Below, one piece after another: positions 2,656 through 16,608 of a DNA stretch of 29,433 nucleotides; position 1 is the first letter of the stretch, and each line of letters starts with the position of its first letter. Under the pieces are notes generated by a model. It was not told the DNA's origin and made no database searches. It worked only from the letters and a program-made list of their open reading frames with translations. A program made the translations under genes and the position numbers. Source of the stretch: a virus; IMG/VR virus record IMGVR_UViG_3300001460_000082, positions 1-29,433 of that record; one strand, given 5' to 3'.

Positions 2656-2946
2656 CTATTTAGATATTTGTTTTTTAGCGTATGTCTTGACAACTGCAAG
2701 TGCAGCACCACCACCTGCTAATGCAGCTAACTCTAAAGTATTTGCATCAACAGAAATCAAAGGTGCGACAACTAAAGCCCCAAGGAATGCTTCAACGAAA
2801 GTCCATATAGTTCTTTCAAGCATATCTTTAAGTTCTTCACTCATTTTATAACTCCATGATTCGGACCAAGGTGTCCACTTTAAGTCCTTTTTGAACTTAC
2901 CTTCTCGGTTTCTTTTTCTTTTATTTTTTTCAAATAAATCTGACAC
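2656..2946 (-). CDS. r1t-type holin
   Basis: This 96-residue protein has two hydrophobic helices, about residues 46-66 (RTIWTFVEAFLGALVVAPL) and 71-89 (LELAALAGGGAALAVVKTY), separated by a short acidic turn and followed by a basic tail. The pattern matches the two-helix r1t-type holins of Gram-positive phages, which make the membrane lesion that frees the endolysin. The start is a GTG whose first base is the last base of the DUF5675 stop (TAGTG). The first 34 residues are unusually basic (about ten Lys/Arg). Met35 is a second possible start with its own good ribosome binding site, so a long and a short product are likely. It sits between the DUF5675 and phosphoesterase genes. Confidence 0.8.
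   Translation of the reverse strand: MSDLFEKNKRKRNREGKFKKDLKWTPWSESWSYKMSEELKDMLERTIWTFVEAFLGALVVAPLISVDANTLELAALAGGGAALAVVKTYAKKQISK
2842..2855 (-). promoter_or_regulatory. Internal ribosome binding site and start (Met35) in the holin gene
   Basis: Before the Met35 codon (ATG at 2844-2842) the - strand reads TGGAGTTATAAAATG. This is a GGAG Shine-Dalgarno core with seven bases to the ATG, stronger than anything before the GTG start at 2946. Initiation here would give a 62-aa protein starting MSEELKDMLERTIW that keeps both membrane helices but loses the very basic N-terminus. Dual-start holin/antiholin pairs are known from lambdoid phages; its use here is inference. Confidence 0.45.
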
Positions 2947-3536
2947 TATTCTATTACCCTTCCACTAAGTTTTGCTTTTATTGTTAAAACATTTCCATTT
3001 ATTTCCTGCAATTTATCATAAACTGTGGTAGCTAATACAGTGTGGTCTTTAGCTTTGTTATCTACTTCTTTGTCTAGTAATTTATTTATTGTTGTGTATT
3101 CTATACTGACTGGTTTACCTTGTAGTAATTCACCTGCTACTTTTCTGTACATTTTTTTGTACGCCACAGCACTTGAACCTATGAATCCATCTTTAGATAT
3201 GTCTAAATCTTGTTGAGTTTCCCCAATTATTAAACAACCGCTCGTGTGTTCATCTGAATTTCCTGTATGAATTAAAATATAGGTAAAGTTAGGTACATCT
3301 TGTATGTGTAACATACCATAATGTGCGTTTTGGTATCTTTCTGTATACTTAGCGTGGAATCCACCTGTCTTTCTAAAGTTTATATCGTATGTACCTTCTG
3401 GTATGCAGGTTTCGTGCATTACTTTTACCGCTTGATACTGGTCCTCTAATGTATAACACTCAAAGATACCATCAATTAATAAAATTCCATTGGTCGCATC
3501 AGTTCCAAACTGATTTCTAACAACTGTTAGTTTCAC
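2946..3536 (-). CDS. DUF5675-family protein, probable lysis or wall-related enzyme
   Basis: This 196-residue protein begins MKLTVVRNQFG with a GTG start; GGAGG lies five bases upstream, which fixes this start. Features typical of DUF5675 are an N-terminal strand pattern with CYTLED (28-32), CIPEGTYDI (44-52), and the block ILIHTGNSDEHTSGCLIIG (87-105). The His...Thr-Ser-Gly-Cys arrangement is reminiscent of the L,D-transpeptidase active site, with Cys101 as a candidate nucleophile; that parallel is my inference. Residues 150-196 form a charged, probably helical extension. It lies directly upstream of the holin with a one-base overlap, so a role in lysis or peptidoglycan modification is reasonable. 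The family has no firmly established function that I know of. Confidence 0.7.
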   Translation of the reverse strand: MKLTVVRNQFGTDATNGILLIDGIFECYTLEDQYQAVKVMHETCIPEGTYDINFRKTGGFHAKYTERYQNAHYGMLHIQDVPNFTYILIHTGNSDEHTSGCLIIGETQQDLDISKDGFIGSSAVAYKKMYRKVAGELLQGKPVSIEYTTINKLLDKEVDNKAKDHTVLATTVYDKLQEINGNVLTIKAKLSGRVIE

Positions 3537-3587
3537 CTATACCTCCATACTTACAGTTACATATTGTAATGTAAGTTCCTTTTTCAT
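3537..3587 (-). CDS. Possible 16-codon leader peptide before the DUF5675 gene
   Basis: An ATG at 3587 opens MKKELTLQYVTVSMEV and ends in TAG at 3539-3537, immediately abutting the GTG of the DUF5675 gene. The DUF5675 Shine-Dalgarno lies inside its last codons. It has no Shine-Dalgarno itself, but an extended -10 (TGTTATACT) ends seven bases before the ATG, as in leaderless mRNAs. Ribosomes translating it would melt the hairpin at 3549-3576 and end at the downstream start. It could equally be a chance frame. Confidence 0.3.
   Translation of the reverse strand: MKKELTLQYVTVSMEV
3549..3576 (-). promoter_or_regulatory. 12-bp hairpin just upstream of the DUF5675 ribosome binding site
   Basis: The arms are 3549-3555 (ACTTACA) with 3570-3576 (TGTAAGT), then 3557-3561 (TTACA) with 3565-3569 (TGTAA). 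There is a single bulged base at 3556 and the loop is TAT. The stem ends two bases before the GGAGG of the DUF5675 gene (3542-3546). There is no U-run after it, so it is not a typical terminator. It could control translation, mRNA decay, or protein binding. Confidence 0.5.
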
Positions 3588-3591
3588 TAAT

Positions 3592-3608
3592 GTAAGTATA
3601 ACACTTAC
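3592..3608 (-). promoter_or_regulatory. Extended -10 promoter (TGTTATACT) inside a GTAAGT/ACTTAC dyad
   Basis: The - strand reads GTAAGTGTTATACTTAC: a 6-bp inverted repeat with a 5-nt centre that covers the extended -10 element TG-T-TATACT (3595-3603). The same GTAAGT/ACTTAC half-sites recur as the outer arms of the hairpin at 3549-3576. This looks like a promoter covered by an operator, placed to drive the DUF5675-holin-phosphoesterase end of the late strand. There is no clear -35, which an extended -10 can tolerate. Confidence 0.45.
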
Positions 3609-3646
3609 TTGCCCCCACAGCATCCACCACCACAACATTCACTCAT
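3605..3646 (-). CDS. 13-residue Cys/Gly mini-protein MSECCGGGCCGGK
   Basis: The frame reads MSECCGGGCCGGK and stop. It starts one base after the TAA of the 62-aa membrane protein gene. The last codons of that gene (encoding RKGE) supply an almost ideal ribosome binding site, AAAGGAGAATAAC-ATG, with six bases between AGGAG and ATG. The peptide has two vicinal cysteine pairs separated by three glycines (CC-GGG-CC), which could bind a soft metal or a bis-thiol reagent, or form disulfides. Strong initiation signal plus non-random composition argue that it is translated, although it is far below usual gene-calling limits. Its stop codon lies within the dyad at 3592-3608. Function unknown. Confidence 0.5.
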   Translation of the reverse strand: MSECCGGGCCGGK

Positions 3647-3647
3647 G

Positions 3648-3836
3648 TTATTCTCCTTTCCTAAATCCTATTGTTAATAACCAAACAGCTAATGTAATTA
3701 CAGTAGCTAGTCCTGTCACTTGTTGTGCAGAACCAGTTAAGGTCAGTGTTGCGATTACTAAACCAACTAAAGTCCACGAAAGGTTTAATGTTTCTTTAAT
3801 TATACTTACTAACCATGACCATATTTTTTTTATCAT
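3648..3836 (-). CDS. Small two-helix membrane protein in the lysis-like cassette (62 aa)
   Basis: This 62-residue protein has a basic, amphipathic start (MIKKIWSWLVSIIK) followed by two hydrophobic stretches, about 19-35 and 40-56, and a short RKGE tail. That is the architecture of a small holin, antiholin or pinholin, but I see no family signature. The ATG overlaps the stop of the 628-aa gene by four bases (ATGA) and has AGGAG six bases upstream. Its own last codons form the ribosome binding site of the 13-aa gene. With the r1t holin and the XhlA-like protein it makes at least three small membrane proteins in 3.3 kb, so one may be an antiholin. Confidence 0.65.
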   Translation of the reverse strand: MIKKIWSWLVSIIKETLNLSWTLVGLVIATLTLTGSAQQVTGLATVITLAVWLLTIGFRKGE

Positions 3837-5719
3837 AAACTTCTCCTAAATACGAAAGCTGCCATACTAGCTATTCTAGTCAAAATAACTGGCACTACAA
3901 CTTCTTGTGCTTTTTCTCTCTGGTCTTGTGTCATGTCATCACCAATGTTTGATAGTGTGACATCTTCAAAATCTAAATCAACAAATATTTCTATAGGGTT
4001 TTCTATAAACGCTTCGTAAGTTTTTTCTGTTACAACATCAGCAAGTGTGTAGTTCTCTACAGCTGCGTTCTCTACAGCTCTCTCTACATATTCTTCTACA
4101 GCTTCTGCTATTACTTCATCATCTTTTACAGATTCAGCAATAATAGCTACATCTTCTGCTTCTACTTGTAGTACTTCAGCTACAACTTCTACCTGTTCTT
4201 CAGTAAGCTCTGCAACATCTGCAATAGCTTCCTCAACAACAGCTTGTACTATCTCTTGAACTTCTACAGATACTTGTTCCAAGTTCTGTACACCAACATC
4301 ATTAACTTCTTCTAAGACCTCTGATGCTTCTTCATTGGTAAGCTCTTCGACATACTCTTGTATTGCTTCTTCTTTAGCTTCTTCATACTCTACTAACTCC
4401 TCTTCTGTAAACTCTTCTATCTCTTCTTCTGTTGCTATTTCTAACTCAATAACAATAATTTCTTCTATCTCTGCAACTTCAACAGCGACTTCCTCTTCAG
4501 TAAGTTCTATCTGTTCCAGGTCCTGTTCCTGGGGTATCTCTCCAGTGACATCCTCGTTAACAATTTCCTGTATTGGCTCATCCAAAACTTCCTTGACATC
4601 TTCTTCAACTTCTTCATCTATAATCTCCTCTTCTATTTCATCTTGTATTGGTACTTCATCCACGATTTCGGTAACAATATCTTCCAAATCAAATTCAATA
4701 ATCTCGAACTCAATAGGTAGTTCTTCAAACTCCAGTATTTCTTCTTCAAATACAATAATTTCTTCTTCAAGAATCTCCTCTTCGAGTATGTCGAGTACCA
4801 CAGTATCATCTTCAAGAATGATGATTTCCATTTCTTCTTCAAGTTCAAGTAACTCTTCTTCAGTAAGTTCAATGTATTCTTCATCAATAATCTCATCTTC
4901 ATATTCTATAACTTCTTCTATTATAATAATGCAATCACCACGCTCTATTTGTGCATTAGTCATAAAACAACCAAACATATCCTCATTATCTATACGCTCT
5001 TGGTCACGCTCAATAGTGCCATCATTAACATCAGCTTGTGTATAAGTTTTATCAACACCTTCTACCACTATATCTACAATAATTTCTTCAGGTAATGGAG
5101 GTGGTGGAGGTGGTGGTATGTAAGGTTCTGGCTCAGGTTCTGGTTGAGGAGGTACAGTTGTAGTAGTTGTGGTAGTTGTAGTAGTGGTAGTTGTAGATGT
5201 TGTAGTAGTTGTTGGAGTAGGAGTAGCGTAAGTAATAGCTATATCATCTAGTCCTACATAATCACTATAAAAATTAAGGTTTATTTCTTTTATAAATTTG
5301 CCTGATGTTTCTGTGTAACTAAACTCTTTATCTTCCCAAGCAGGACTTTCATCAGGTTTATTAGCAGTAAATGTATTAGCTATCCATCCACTATCTGTAT
5401 CATCTGTATATAAATACTTTATATCCCAGTCATTGTTTAGTCCACTAAGGTCAACAGCAAAAGTTTGTATGTCTGTTCTTTCCCACCATAATCTAAGGAC
5501 ATGTCCACTACCAGAGTTACGATTGTATTCTAAACAATAACCAACACATAAATGAGTGCCATCATATAGATTTGTTACAGAGTTTTCTGCACCACCACTA
5601 TCGTAAGATATTACAGATGTCCAACCATTTTCATCAAAAGATTCTGTAACTGTTGTTACTTCATTTGCAAATACAGGTGTAGGTATTAATAAAAATAGTG
5701 CAAGACATAATCTCCACAT
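3833..5719 (-). CDS. Secreted Thr/Pro-linker, Glu-rich protein of unknown function (628 aa)
   Basis: Residues 1-18 are a clear signal peptide (MWRLCLALFLLIPTPVFA, with the A-N junction as cleavage site). Residues 19-165 look like a compact beta-rich domain with two Cys (58, 62). A Thr tract (169-188) and a Pro/Glu-Pro stretch (189-210, including seven consecutive Pro) form a wall- or surface-type spacer. Residues 211 to about 590 are extraordinarily acidic, alternating Glu/Asp with Ile/Leu/Val. The end (596-628) is amphipathic to hydrophobic with a terminal FRRSL, a possible membrane anchor. I infer export from the infected cell or display on its surface. The start overlaps the XhlA-like stop by one base. 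Similar Thr-Pro linkers occur in surface proteins of actinobacteria, so capture from a host is possible. It is not a recognisable spanin or lysin. Confidence 0.7.
   Translation of the reverse strand: MWRLCLALFLLIPTPVFANEVTTVTESFDENGWTSVISYDSGGAENSVTNLYDGTHLCVGYCLEYNRNSGSGHVLRLWWERTDIQTFAVDLSGLNNDWDIKYLYTDDTDSGWIANTFTANKPDESPAWEDKEFSYTETSGKFIKEINLNFYSDYVGLDDIAITYATPTPTTTTTSTTTTTTTTTTTTTVPPQPEPEPEPYIPPPPPPPLPEEIIVDIVVEGVDKTYTQADVNDGTIERDQERIDNEDMFGCFMTNAQIERGDCIIIIEEVIEYEDEIIDEEYIELTEEELLELEEEMEIIILEDDTVVLDILEEEILEEEIIVFEEEILEFEELPIEFEIIEFDLEDIVTEIVDEVPIQDEIEEEIIDEEVEEDVKEVLDEPIQEIVNEDVTGEIPQEQDLEQIELTEEEVAVEVAEIEEIIVIELEIATEEEIEEFTEEELVEYEEAKEEAIQEYVEELTNEEASEVLEEVNDVGVQNLEQVSVEVQEIVQAVVEEAIADVAELTEEQVEVVAEVLQVEAEDVAIIAESVKDDEVIAEAVEEYVERAVENAAVENYTLADVVTEKTYEAFIENPIEIFVDLDFEDVTLSNIGDDMTQDQREKAQEVVVPVILTRIASMAAFVFRRSL
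5156..5215 (-). repeat. ACN triplet tract encoding the poly-Thr linker
   Basis: Twenty codons of almost pure ACN (ACT, ACA, ACC), interrupted by one Ser codon, form a low-complexity trinucleotide tract within the 628-aa gene. It is followed by a GGN/CCN-like tract encoding poly-Pro (about 5091-5120). Codon choice varies, so it is an imperfect repeat; length change would stay in frame only in steps of three. Confidence 0.6.
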
Positions 5720-14320: not shown

Positions 14321-15379
14321 CTATTGTTCTTCTAATCCTATTACTTGACCTGTTTGTGTTGTTGCAGAACCTAATTGAACTGCTGACTGTGATGCAGATT
14401 GTTCTGCAATTCTTTGCACAGTTTGTATGTCATCTGATTCACCTAACCTAGAACCTATAATCTGTCCTTCTGTTAGTTGCCTACCTTGTGCTGCTGCTGC
14501 ACCCATAAGTCCTGGTGCTACTGCTGCTGTAGTTTGAAATATTTCTTTTGCTTGTGTTTGTGTCAGACCTTGTCTAGCTAAACTTTGTGCAAATGCTACA
14601 TTTACCATTCCCATACCTGCTACTTCTGATTCAGCTAATATTTGACTTGCTCTTATATTACCTTCTAATATATTTTTACCTACTGTAGGAGATACAAACA
14701 TAGCAAATATTGCTTCATCTGGAAAATCAATACCAAAGTTTTCTAAGTAAGCTGCTTTTACCTCTGGTATATTATTTACAATGCCTTCGTAACCTAATGT
14801 TAATCTTGTATTAAACTCATCAGGCGATACACTACCTGCTATAGCAGCAACTATGTCATCAGAAAACTCTGATGGATTTAAATTATAATCTCTTAAATAA
14901 CTACTCATTGTATCTACAGAAGTTAAATACTCTACTTCTGTCATTCTTAATACGCCAGTTGATTCATCTCTTATGCCTGGATATATAGCTTCCATTAATG
15001 GATTAGCTCTCATGTCTGCAAGTGATTGTGTCATATCTTGTGATACTGTATAAGATTCTAATAATACATCTACTAATCTTGCATCTAAGTATGGGTATCT
15101 TCTAGCCATTTCTTCTTTAGTAGTATTTTTTGCTACAGGTGCAGCTATATTTTCTGTTTCAGTATCTTCTACTCTAAATTGATTTGCTTGTCTTGATACT
15201 TGGTCATCTTCTGCTTGGTTTTTTGAAAATTTGTAACTAGAGGTTCTTACTAAATCTTCTGCAAATTCTTGTGCAGTACTGTATGAAGAACCATCTTCTT
15301 TTTTTTGTGTTCTTGCATAAGCATCATCAAATGTTTCACCTGCAAGATTGTCATATCTGTATATTGTTACTGATGCCAT
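14321..15379 (-). CDS. Putative internal virion protein (352 aa)
   Basis: This 352-residue, mainly helical protein is rich in Ala, Glu and Gln. The N-terminal 70 residues are charged. The middle contains YPYLDARLVDVLLESY (about 95-110), VLRMTEVEYLTSVDTMSSYL (about 144-163) and SPDEFNTRLTLGYEGIV. The last about 100 residues are Ala/Gln-rich (SQSAVQLGSATTQTGQV). There is no membrane segment or enzyme motif. As the last of seven closely packed large genes before the capsid unit, it probably belongs to the same internal or ejection assembly, which is inference. GGAG lies upstream of the ATG (CAGGAGATAACA). Confidence 0.5.
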   Translation of the reverse strand: MASVTIYRYDNLAGETFDDAYARTQKKEDGSSYSTAQEFAEDLVRTSSYKFSKNQAEDDQVSRQANQFRVEDTETENIAAPVAKNTTKEEMARRYPYLDARLVDVLLESYTVSQDMTQSLADMRANPLMEAIYPGIRDESTGVLRMTEVEYLTSVDTMSSYLRDYNLNPSEFSDDIVAAIAGSVSPDEFNTRLTLGYEGIVNNIPEVKAAYLENFGIDFPDEAIFAMFVSPTVGKNILEGNIRASQILAESEVAGMGMVNVAFAQSLARQGLTQTQAKEIFQTTAAVAPGLMGAAAAQGRQLTEGQIIGSRLGESDDIQTVQRIAEQSASQSAVQLGSATTQTGQVIGLEEQ

Positions 15380-15381
15380 TG

Positions 15382-16608
15382 TTATCTCCTGTATATTGTA
15401 GATGCGTTAAACACACCAGACACATCACTTTGTAATTGCCTAGATGCTTCACCTAATATTTCTTCTTGAATATATGGTGTGTCTATATATTCCTTGTACA
15501 TGTATGTTTCAAAATCCTGGTAGTTTCCTTGAAATTTTTGTGCTTGTCTTGCTACATTTGTAAGTTGTGTTTCTGTTAATGTTTTTTGTCCAAGTATTTT
15601 TGTAGTCAGACTTTCAAAGCTACCTGCCCAACCAGAGTATTTGCTACCTTTTGCCCAAGGATATAAAGCATCAGCAGCTTTCTGTAAATCTTCTTTAATT
15701 AATGTTTCGTTATTACTTGTGTCACCCTCTGCATCTAATCTAAGTTTTGCAGCTATCTCATCTAGTTTACCATTATTTTTATACCCATCTAATAACAATG
15801 GTCCGCCATAATCTAATATAAGTATTTCTGCAGCAGAATATCCACTTCTAGTTTCTTCTATCTTTCCAATGTATTTTTGGAAATCTTCATGTATGACACT
15901 ATCGCCACCCATAAGGTTTCTCCTAGAAGTATCACCTAAATTTCTAATTATTTCATTAGCTTCAGGTTGTGTAATTTTTCCTGTCGTTACAGCACTGTTT
16001 AAATCAACAATAAGATTGTTAATTTCTTCACCTGCTAGTCCTTTTTTACCTGCTTCTAATTTATAATAAGCTAGGTTATCATTAATAATCTGTGTTGCTT
16101 CTTCTTCATTTTGAAATGAAAACTCTGACCATGCTCTAGCTGCACCAGAGGGATGTGATTTATACCAAGATGTTTCTGACAACAACTCTGTAGGCACAGT
16201 ATCAAGATTTAACAATGCTGATAATGCAAAAGCATACTGCATATCTAAATCTAAATAATGGTCGCCAATATGTTTAGCGTTGTAATTTAACTGGTCTTGT
16301 GTAATATTAAGAATTTTATCAGTGCTTGTGTTTGATGCTGATTGTTCAGCAAGTGTCATAACTTCGCTGTACCCTAATTGATACTCCATAAAAACATACT
16401 CTCCATTATATTCTTCAACCTCTTCTATAGTTGCAAACACCATATCTGGCTTGACATTGTCTTTTAACATTGATGGTTCATCTACTCTTATATATATTGG
16501 TAAATTGCCACCTGATGATGTTGTCATATAAATTACGCCATACAAACTATCACCAATTTGTATTAGTTCATCTGGTTCTATAAATTCATCAACAAAATAA
16601 TCTGCCAT
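15382..16608 (-). CDS. Putative internal virion protein (408 aa)
   Basis: This 408-residue acidic protein has an N-terminal beta region (1-85, DSLYGVIYMTTSSGGNLPIY) and a long helical part (from about 95, NITQDQLNYNAKHIGDHYLD). The segment ALADALYPWAKG-like (KAADALYPWAKGSKYSGWAG, about 310-329) is Trp/Tyr-rich. No family is recognised. The ATG overlaps the stop of the 1799-aa gene by one base, and two bases separate its stop from the 352-aa gene, so stoichiometric production with both is likely. Virion role inferred from context only. Confidence 0.5.
   Translation of the reverse strand: MADYFVDEFIEPDELIQIGDSLYGVIYMTTSSGGNLPIYIRVDEPSMLKDNVKPDMVFATIEEVEEYNGEYVFMEYQLGYSEVMTLAEQSASNTSTDKILNITQDQLNYNAKHIGDHYLDLDMQYAFALSALLNLDTVPTELLSETSWYKSHPSGAARAWSEFSFQNEEEATQIINDNLAYYKLEAGKKGLAGEEINNLIVDLNSAVTTGKITQPEANEIIRNLGDTSRRNLMGGDSVIHEDFQKYIGKIEETRSGYSAAEILILDYGGPLLLDGYKNNGKLDEIAAKLRLDAEGDTSNNETLIKEDLQKAADALYPWAKGSKYSGWAGSFESLTTKILGQKTLTETQLTNVARQAQKFQGNYQDFETYMYKEYIDTPYIQEEILGEASRQLQSDVSGVFNASTIYRR

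Follow-up and report, generated by a model that had tools for sequence, protein, structure and literature searches.

Metallothioneins and the C-terminal vicinal-cysteine tails of MerA and some thioredoxin reductases bind soft metals or cycle disulfides. The micropeptide described here resembles them in being cysteine-rich or in having vicinal, glycine-flanked cysteines, and its conserved, clustered cysteines are metallothionein-like, although three cysteine variants were seen; unlike it, those systems are longer proteins or the tails of enzymes. Small phage genes have reportedly been predicted by Fremin, Bhatt and Kyrpides in work from 2022 that is cited in PMC11323111; like this one, those genes are reportedly short, conserved, unannotated and derived from comparative genomics. 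Compared with described small phage proteins, the micropeptide (10–18 residues) is far shorter than most and has an almost invariant tetracysteine core; a review of such proteins (PMC11323111) does not mention cysteine, zinc or metal. The engineered FlAsH tag CCPGCC (PMC7542560) likewise places two vicinal cysteine pairs around a turn and was designed as a bis-thiol ligand. It is an artificial tag with a two-residue PG spacer and binds biarsenical dyes, whereas the micropeptide is natural and has a three-residue G-x-G spacer; by analogy only, the tag suggests that cysteines arranged as CC-turn-CC are able to bind bis-thiol reagents. The papers searched, which did not include that of Fremin, Bhatt and Kyrpides (2022), contained no account of this motif in phages. 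Unnamed copies may be present in a global catalogue of small ORFs, whose predictions start at 30 nt (PMC11364881). The micropeptide belongs with the conserved small proteins of phages, and its size and composition are unusual.

The micropeptide gene and its surroundings

The window is the whole stretch of viral DNA that was analysed, 29,433 nucleotides of IMG/VR record IMGVR_UViG_3300001460_000082. The original prediction was that it contains a 13-residue ORF of CC-GGG-CC type, with AAAGGAG six bases ahead of its start and that start one base past the stop of the upstream ORF, and each of these points was borne out on the minus strand (Table 1). The DNA pattern for CCGxGCC occurs once in the window and was found in none of 100 dinucleotide shuffles. 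Neither the small transmembrane protein encoded upstream (TM62) nor the large acidic protein beyond it (T628) had a Pfam or PHROGs match. In T628 the linker is of poly-Thr/Pro type and another region is repeat-like and very acidic; other phages carry the micropeptide gene immediately ahead of a T628 homologue.

Table 1 Features of the window around the micropeptide gene
Feature	Position	Strand	Remarks
Holin	2656..2946	-	phrog_443
DUF5675 (PF18925) lysozyme-like protein, downstream neighbour	2946..3536	-	E 1.2e-28; phrog_1501
ORF2, 33 aa, VGASKCYTYINEKGTYITICNCKYGGIGETNSC, unannotated, Cys-containing	3517..3618	-	Conserved; start site inferred
Micropeptide gene, MSECCGGGCCGGK-stop, 13 aa, tetracysteine CCGGGCC core	3605..3646	-	Translation of window
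TM62, 62-aa small transmembrane protein, upstream neighbour	3648..3836	-	Family 0 among neighbour families
Shine-Dalgarno AAAGGAG	3653..3659	-	6 nt (AATAAC) 5' of micropeptide ATG
T628, 628-aa acidic protein, signal peptide and Thr-rich linker	3833..5719	-	Homologues in other phages

The gap between the flanking genes had also been thought to have no other need for a ribosome binding site. This was partly wrong, because a second small conserved ORF (ORF2) fills the rest of it, with its 3' end overlapping the lysozyme start and its proposed GTG start lying inside the micropeptide gene. A 25-codon core, [K/N/M]C-Y-T-Y-I-N-x-x-G-T-H-I-S-V-C-x-C-K-x-G-G-I-G-E, spans the micropeptide stop through the lysozyme start; it has a pN/pS of 0.25 in frame, and every sequence has stops in each of the two remaining frames. 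In one group of relatives ORF2 begins with an ATG of its own, located where the micropeptide stops (TAATG). The window's group has no such ATG and reads ORF2 in the +1 frame relative to the micropeptide, but the micropeptide gene of this group always offers a GTG in that frame, at TGT-GGN. The last cysteine codon was TGT in 25 of 25 sequences of this group compared with 54 of 104 contexts without ORF2 (Fisher 1.2e-6), a test weakened by relatedness because the group with its own ATG also had TGT in 18 of 18. We read ORF2 as a putative overlapping gene for 33 aa with an internal GTG start, the start being inferred; the alternative is that it is read by +1 frameshifting after the micropeptide stop.

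Conservation of the peptide and its motif

Relatives were gathered from IMG/VR with the neighbouring DUF5675 lysozyme as the sole query, so that the resulting 80 loci form a sample independent of the peptide. A cysteine-rich ORF of 12–15 aa occupied the same slot at 52 of the 80, in 25 distinct nucleotide sequences, and the peptides were mostly of the MDCCGSGCCGGK/E/R and M(x)ECCGGGCCGGK types; cysteines were changed in three of them (L044, L064, L066). Over ten core codons of the 25 unique versions pN/pS was 0.15, falling to 0.077 when codon x and the last codon were omitted, compared with 1.3 and 3.6, respectively, in the +1 frame. Third positions accounted for 66 of the 95 differences from the consensus. 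These ratios and the excess at third positions indicate strong selection on the peptide and not on a DNA or RNA element. An RNA element was ruled out by the lack of any Rfam match near the gene and by the variation at synonymous sites, and a chance ORF by the selection statistics and by recurrence. The proposal of an overlooked conserved phage micropeptide was upheld, in that relatives keep the start, ribosome binding site, frame and CCGxGCC with synonymous variation. Frame-breaking changes in relatives, which were to have refuted it, were not encountered as remnants in any sequence inspected; in relatives without the motif the peptide was wholly absent, located elsewhere or altered by a cysteine missense change.

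Pattern scans condition on the motif, and therefore two complementary scans were run. With the start, four cysteines and stop fixed and every spacer and tail residue left free, 107 of 109 distinct contexts among the matches listed read CCGxGCC, indicating that the glycines are also conserved, and the tails in this list were nearly always xG(K/R/E/N/S/G). With the glycines, start and ribosome binding site fixed and the cysteines free, all four cysteines were intact in 8 of 10 contexts among the matches listed; the other two carried single cysteine substitutions in the same slot. The consensus is M-[D/E]-CC-G-[N/G/S/Q/H]-G-CC-x-G-[K/R/E/N/S/G]-stop, usually of 12 residues, and the residue between the glycines was N (38), G (34), S (26), Q (13) or H (8) among at least 121 distinct ORFs. 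Among the matches listed, the motif recurred in at least 156 distinct contexts, about 155 of them true (L188 is probably a chance match), and as at least 61 distinct peptides. The gene has its own start codon and ribosome binding site: in 132 of the 156 contexts among the matches listed, at least five consecutive bases matched AAGGAGGTGATC at -18..-4.

A chance ORF, or conservation of the DNA or RNA without a peptide, might still be argued from the extreme shortness of the ORF and the absence of translation data. It is very hard to reconcile with a pN/pS of 0.08–0.15, a fixed length and stop, a ribosome binding site in nearly all contexts, recurrence amid unrelated flanks and a pattern missing from every shuffle, and we consider it highly improbable. 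On this comparative evidence the micropeptide ORF codes for protein, is held by strong purifying selection and is almost certainly a selected gene.

Neighbourhoods, carriers and hosts

The micropeptide gene was found in at least six types of neighbourhood, including those of the lysozyme, T628, the tail terminator with a 73-aa protein, and the neck protein with the major tail protein. The order in the window (TM62, peptide, lysozyme) accounted for just under half of the at least 156 contexts. About 25 of the contexts listed had a 66-aa coiled-coil/TM protein upstream and a T628 homologue downstream, and several carriers with the peptide at this T628 site had no copy before the lysozyme. In about 10 of the contexts listed the gene followed a tail terminator (phrog_17840) and preceded a 73-aa protein, in about 7 it stood just before the major tail protein (phrog_9522), and in others listed it came after holin-like genes. 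The gene was packed between same-strand neighbours with its own ribosome binding site, and it is not tied to one fixed neighbour; because its position varies, it is an independent gene and not a lysozyme leader.

Of the 41 true carrier records searched in full, 40 had a single copy; a chance match in G036 was left out. The exception (G002, IMGVR_UViG_3300030380_002584) had two copies and a duplicated lysozyme. This 44-kb record contains two divergent lysozyme-micropeptide regions (L006 and L043), with lysozymes 91% and 86% identical to that of the window, and reflects either duplication or chimeric assembly. Three close relatives of 34–38 kb (G003, G007 and G010) had no micropeptide in whole-record searches. 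Since it is absent from some close relatives and its cysteines are changed at three loci, the peptide is not essential everywhere. Other short cysteine-rich ORFs were seen in the same slot of relatives lacking CCGxGCC, at L013 381 (MSKQKCCNTCCCKEGGQDETNSS), L078 2107 (...KCCNKCCCKEGG...), L305 3265 (MICGLCSGSCATCPLGGGLRNEVNCS) and L314 10502 (MCMVTEKEDGSFVQICNCKNGSSCCKEGGQDETNSS), and are possible functional replacements.

The major capsid protein of carriers was either SU10-type (PF17236) or HK97-type (PF05065), and T628 was found with both. Common genes were exo388 (phosphoesterase/exonuclease-like; 23 of 24 genomes), T628 (19 of 24) and the lysozyme (19 of 24). As a universal gene partner exo388 was rejected, because non-carriers also have it and it marks the phage group and not the peptide; no gene partner that would explain the chemistry of the peptide was found. 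The varying neighbours, two capsid types and common genes indicate an accessory gene of one mosaic pool, not of one lineage or operon.

Database relatives of the capsid protein were mostly from Mycobacterium, Propionibacterium and Bifidobacterium phages, and those of the tail terminator from Rhodococcus and Pontimonas phages. A search of 84,980 GTDB species genomes gave 21 pattern matches, of which only one was an M[DE]CCGxGCC micropeptide. It lies on a 54-kb contig that carries phage genes and belongs to an Actinomycetota MAG (about 1.1 Mb), and the micropeptide is missing from the 41 further genomes (0.6–1.1 Mb) in that MAG's order. Cellular homologues were rejected, the remaining 20 matches being internal to longer frames (RnfC-like motifs or chance), and the micropeptide is essentially virus-only. 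The clostridial MECCGCGCCSYVCP matches, which we take to be an RnfC-like ferredoxin motif by recognition without a search, also contain the letters MECCGxGCC, but unlike the micropeptide they have frames open up to 400+ codons upstream, cysteine as x and a further CP motif. A 4Fe-4S ferredoxin motif (CxxCxxCxxxCP) was likewise discarded for the micropeptide itself, whose spacing is CC-xxx-CC and which ends three residues later.

The small, streamlined genomes fit Candidatus Actinomarinales as host, by inference; phages of this group have been described, one with an enlarged WhiB, a protein described as actinobacterium-specific (PMC7771536). In one micropeptide carrier (L256, G047) a WhiB domain at 15303-15500 lies within a 220-codon frame and resembles that enlarged WhiB (PMC7771536). 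It was the only carrier record with WhiB, which was not accepted as a general host marker. From homology and the one MAG contig, we infer that the hosts are probably marine Actinomycetota. Cultured phages gave no DNA match and no match for the 62-aa transmembrane or 70-aa holin-like neighbours, and in six named phages the regions surrounding homologues of two further neighbours contained no such peptide.

Proposed chemistry and rival explanations

We propose an independently translated micropeptide gene in a mosaic phage group, probably on marine Actinomycetota. Expression would be late, an inference from neighbours that are lysis or virion genes, and the peptide product would work in trans. 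With the Gly-x-Gly turn holding its four cysteines together, it would present a single thiolate site, which may either take up a soft metal ion (such as Cu(I), Zn(II) or Fe) or cycle between dithiol and vicinal disulfide, so that the peptide would be a small metal/thiol effector in late infection or particle assembly. This is inferred to be the simplest chemistry that needs all four cysteines and the spacer. Metal or bis-thiol binding, as originally suggested, is plausible as an inference from the cysteines alone. Stated as a mechanism, a soft-metal ligand or dithiol/vicinal-disulfide switch has, in our estimate, about an even chance of being correct. More tentative, and rather short of even, is the full reading, in which a 12-residue metallopeptide or dithiol redox peptide, genetically encoded and free-standing, shifts position among mosaic phages with a marine actinobacterial host in common and serves metal/thiol chemistry in late infection. 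Against the mechanism, neither translation nor metal binding nor a redox state has been shown directly, the peptide is missing from some close relatives, cysteines are changed at three loci, and no gene partner accounts for the peptide's chemistry.

A structural, virion or host-target role without a metal would fit the same data. The peptide might be packaged in the late particle or crosslink it through its cysteines, whether in the tail or in the lysis apparatus; it lies among late genes, and one set of carriers has it between tail terminator/neck genes and the major tail protein, but most carriers have lysis and not virion neighbours and large relatives do without it, leaving such a role unlikely. 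We give the same low weight to a host-directed effector that binds and inhibits an actinobacterial thiol protein or metalloprotein (for example an Fe-S, Zn or redox protein). Its passage across capsid lineages with a common presumed host, and its near-restriction to viruses, would suit this, yet no target is indicated, and host-takeover genes are usually early, which makes a late neighbourhood less typical of them. Short cysteine-rich upstream ORFs are a known type of bacterial leader, and the peptide gene immediately precedes another gene, its stop codon often overlapping the next start codon, so that translation of its cysteine codons or the nascent peptide might act in cis to tune the next gene (for example through cysteine limitation or ribosome pausing). 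This appears slightly less probable still: the downstream gene varies (lysozyme, T628, 73-aa protein, major tail protein, 160-aa protein), which excluded a lysozyme leader as the main reading for want of a fixed position; glycine and tail residues are conserved as much as cysteine; there is no Rfam match nearby; and TGT and TGC interchange freely at the cysteine codons in most contexts.

The peptide is short enough for its chemistry (metal, disulfide or target binding) to be tested directly on synthetic material, and with its CC-turn-CC layout it may lend itself to biarsenical labelling inside infected cells. Standard length cut-offs conceal genes of a dozen codons that are rigidly conserved, and the sequence of this one can readily serve to mark an uncultured group of marine phages. 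If the proposed chemistry is true, few conserved stand-alone genes of viruses would be smaller than that of the metallopeptide.
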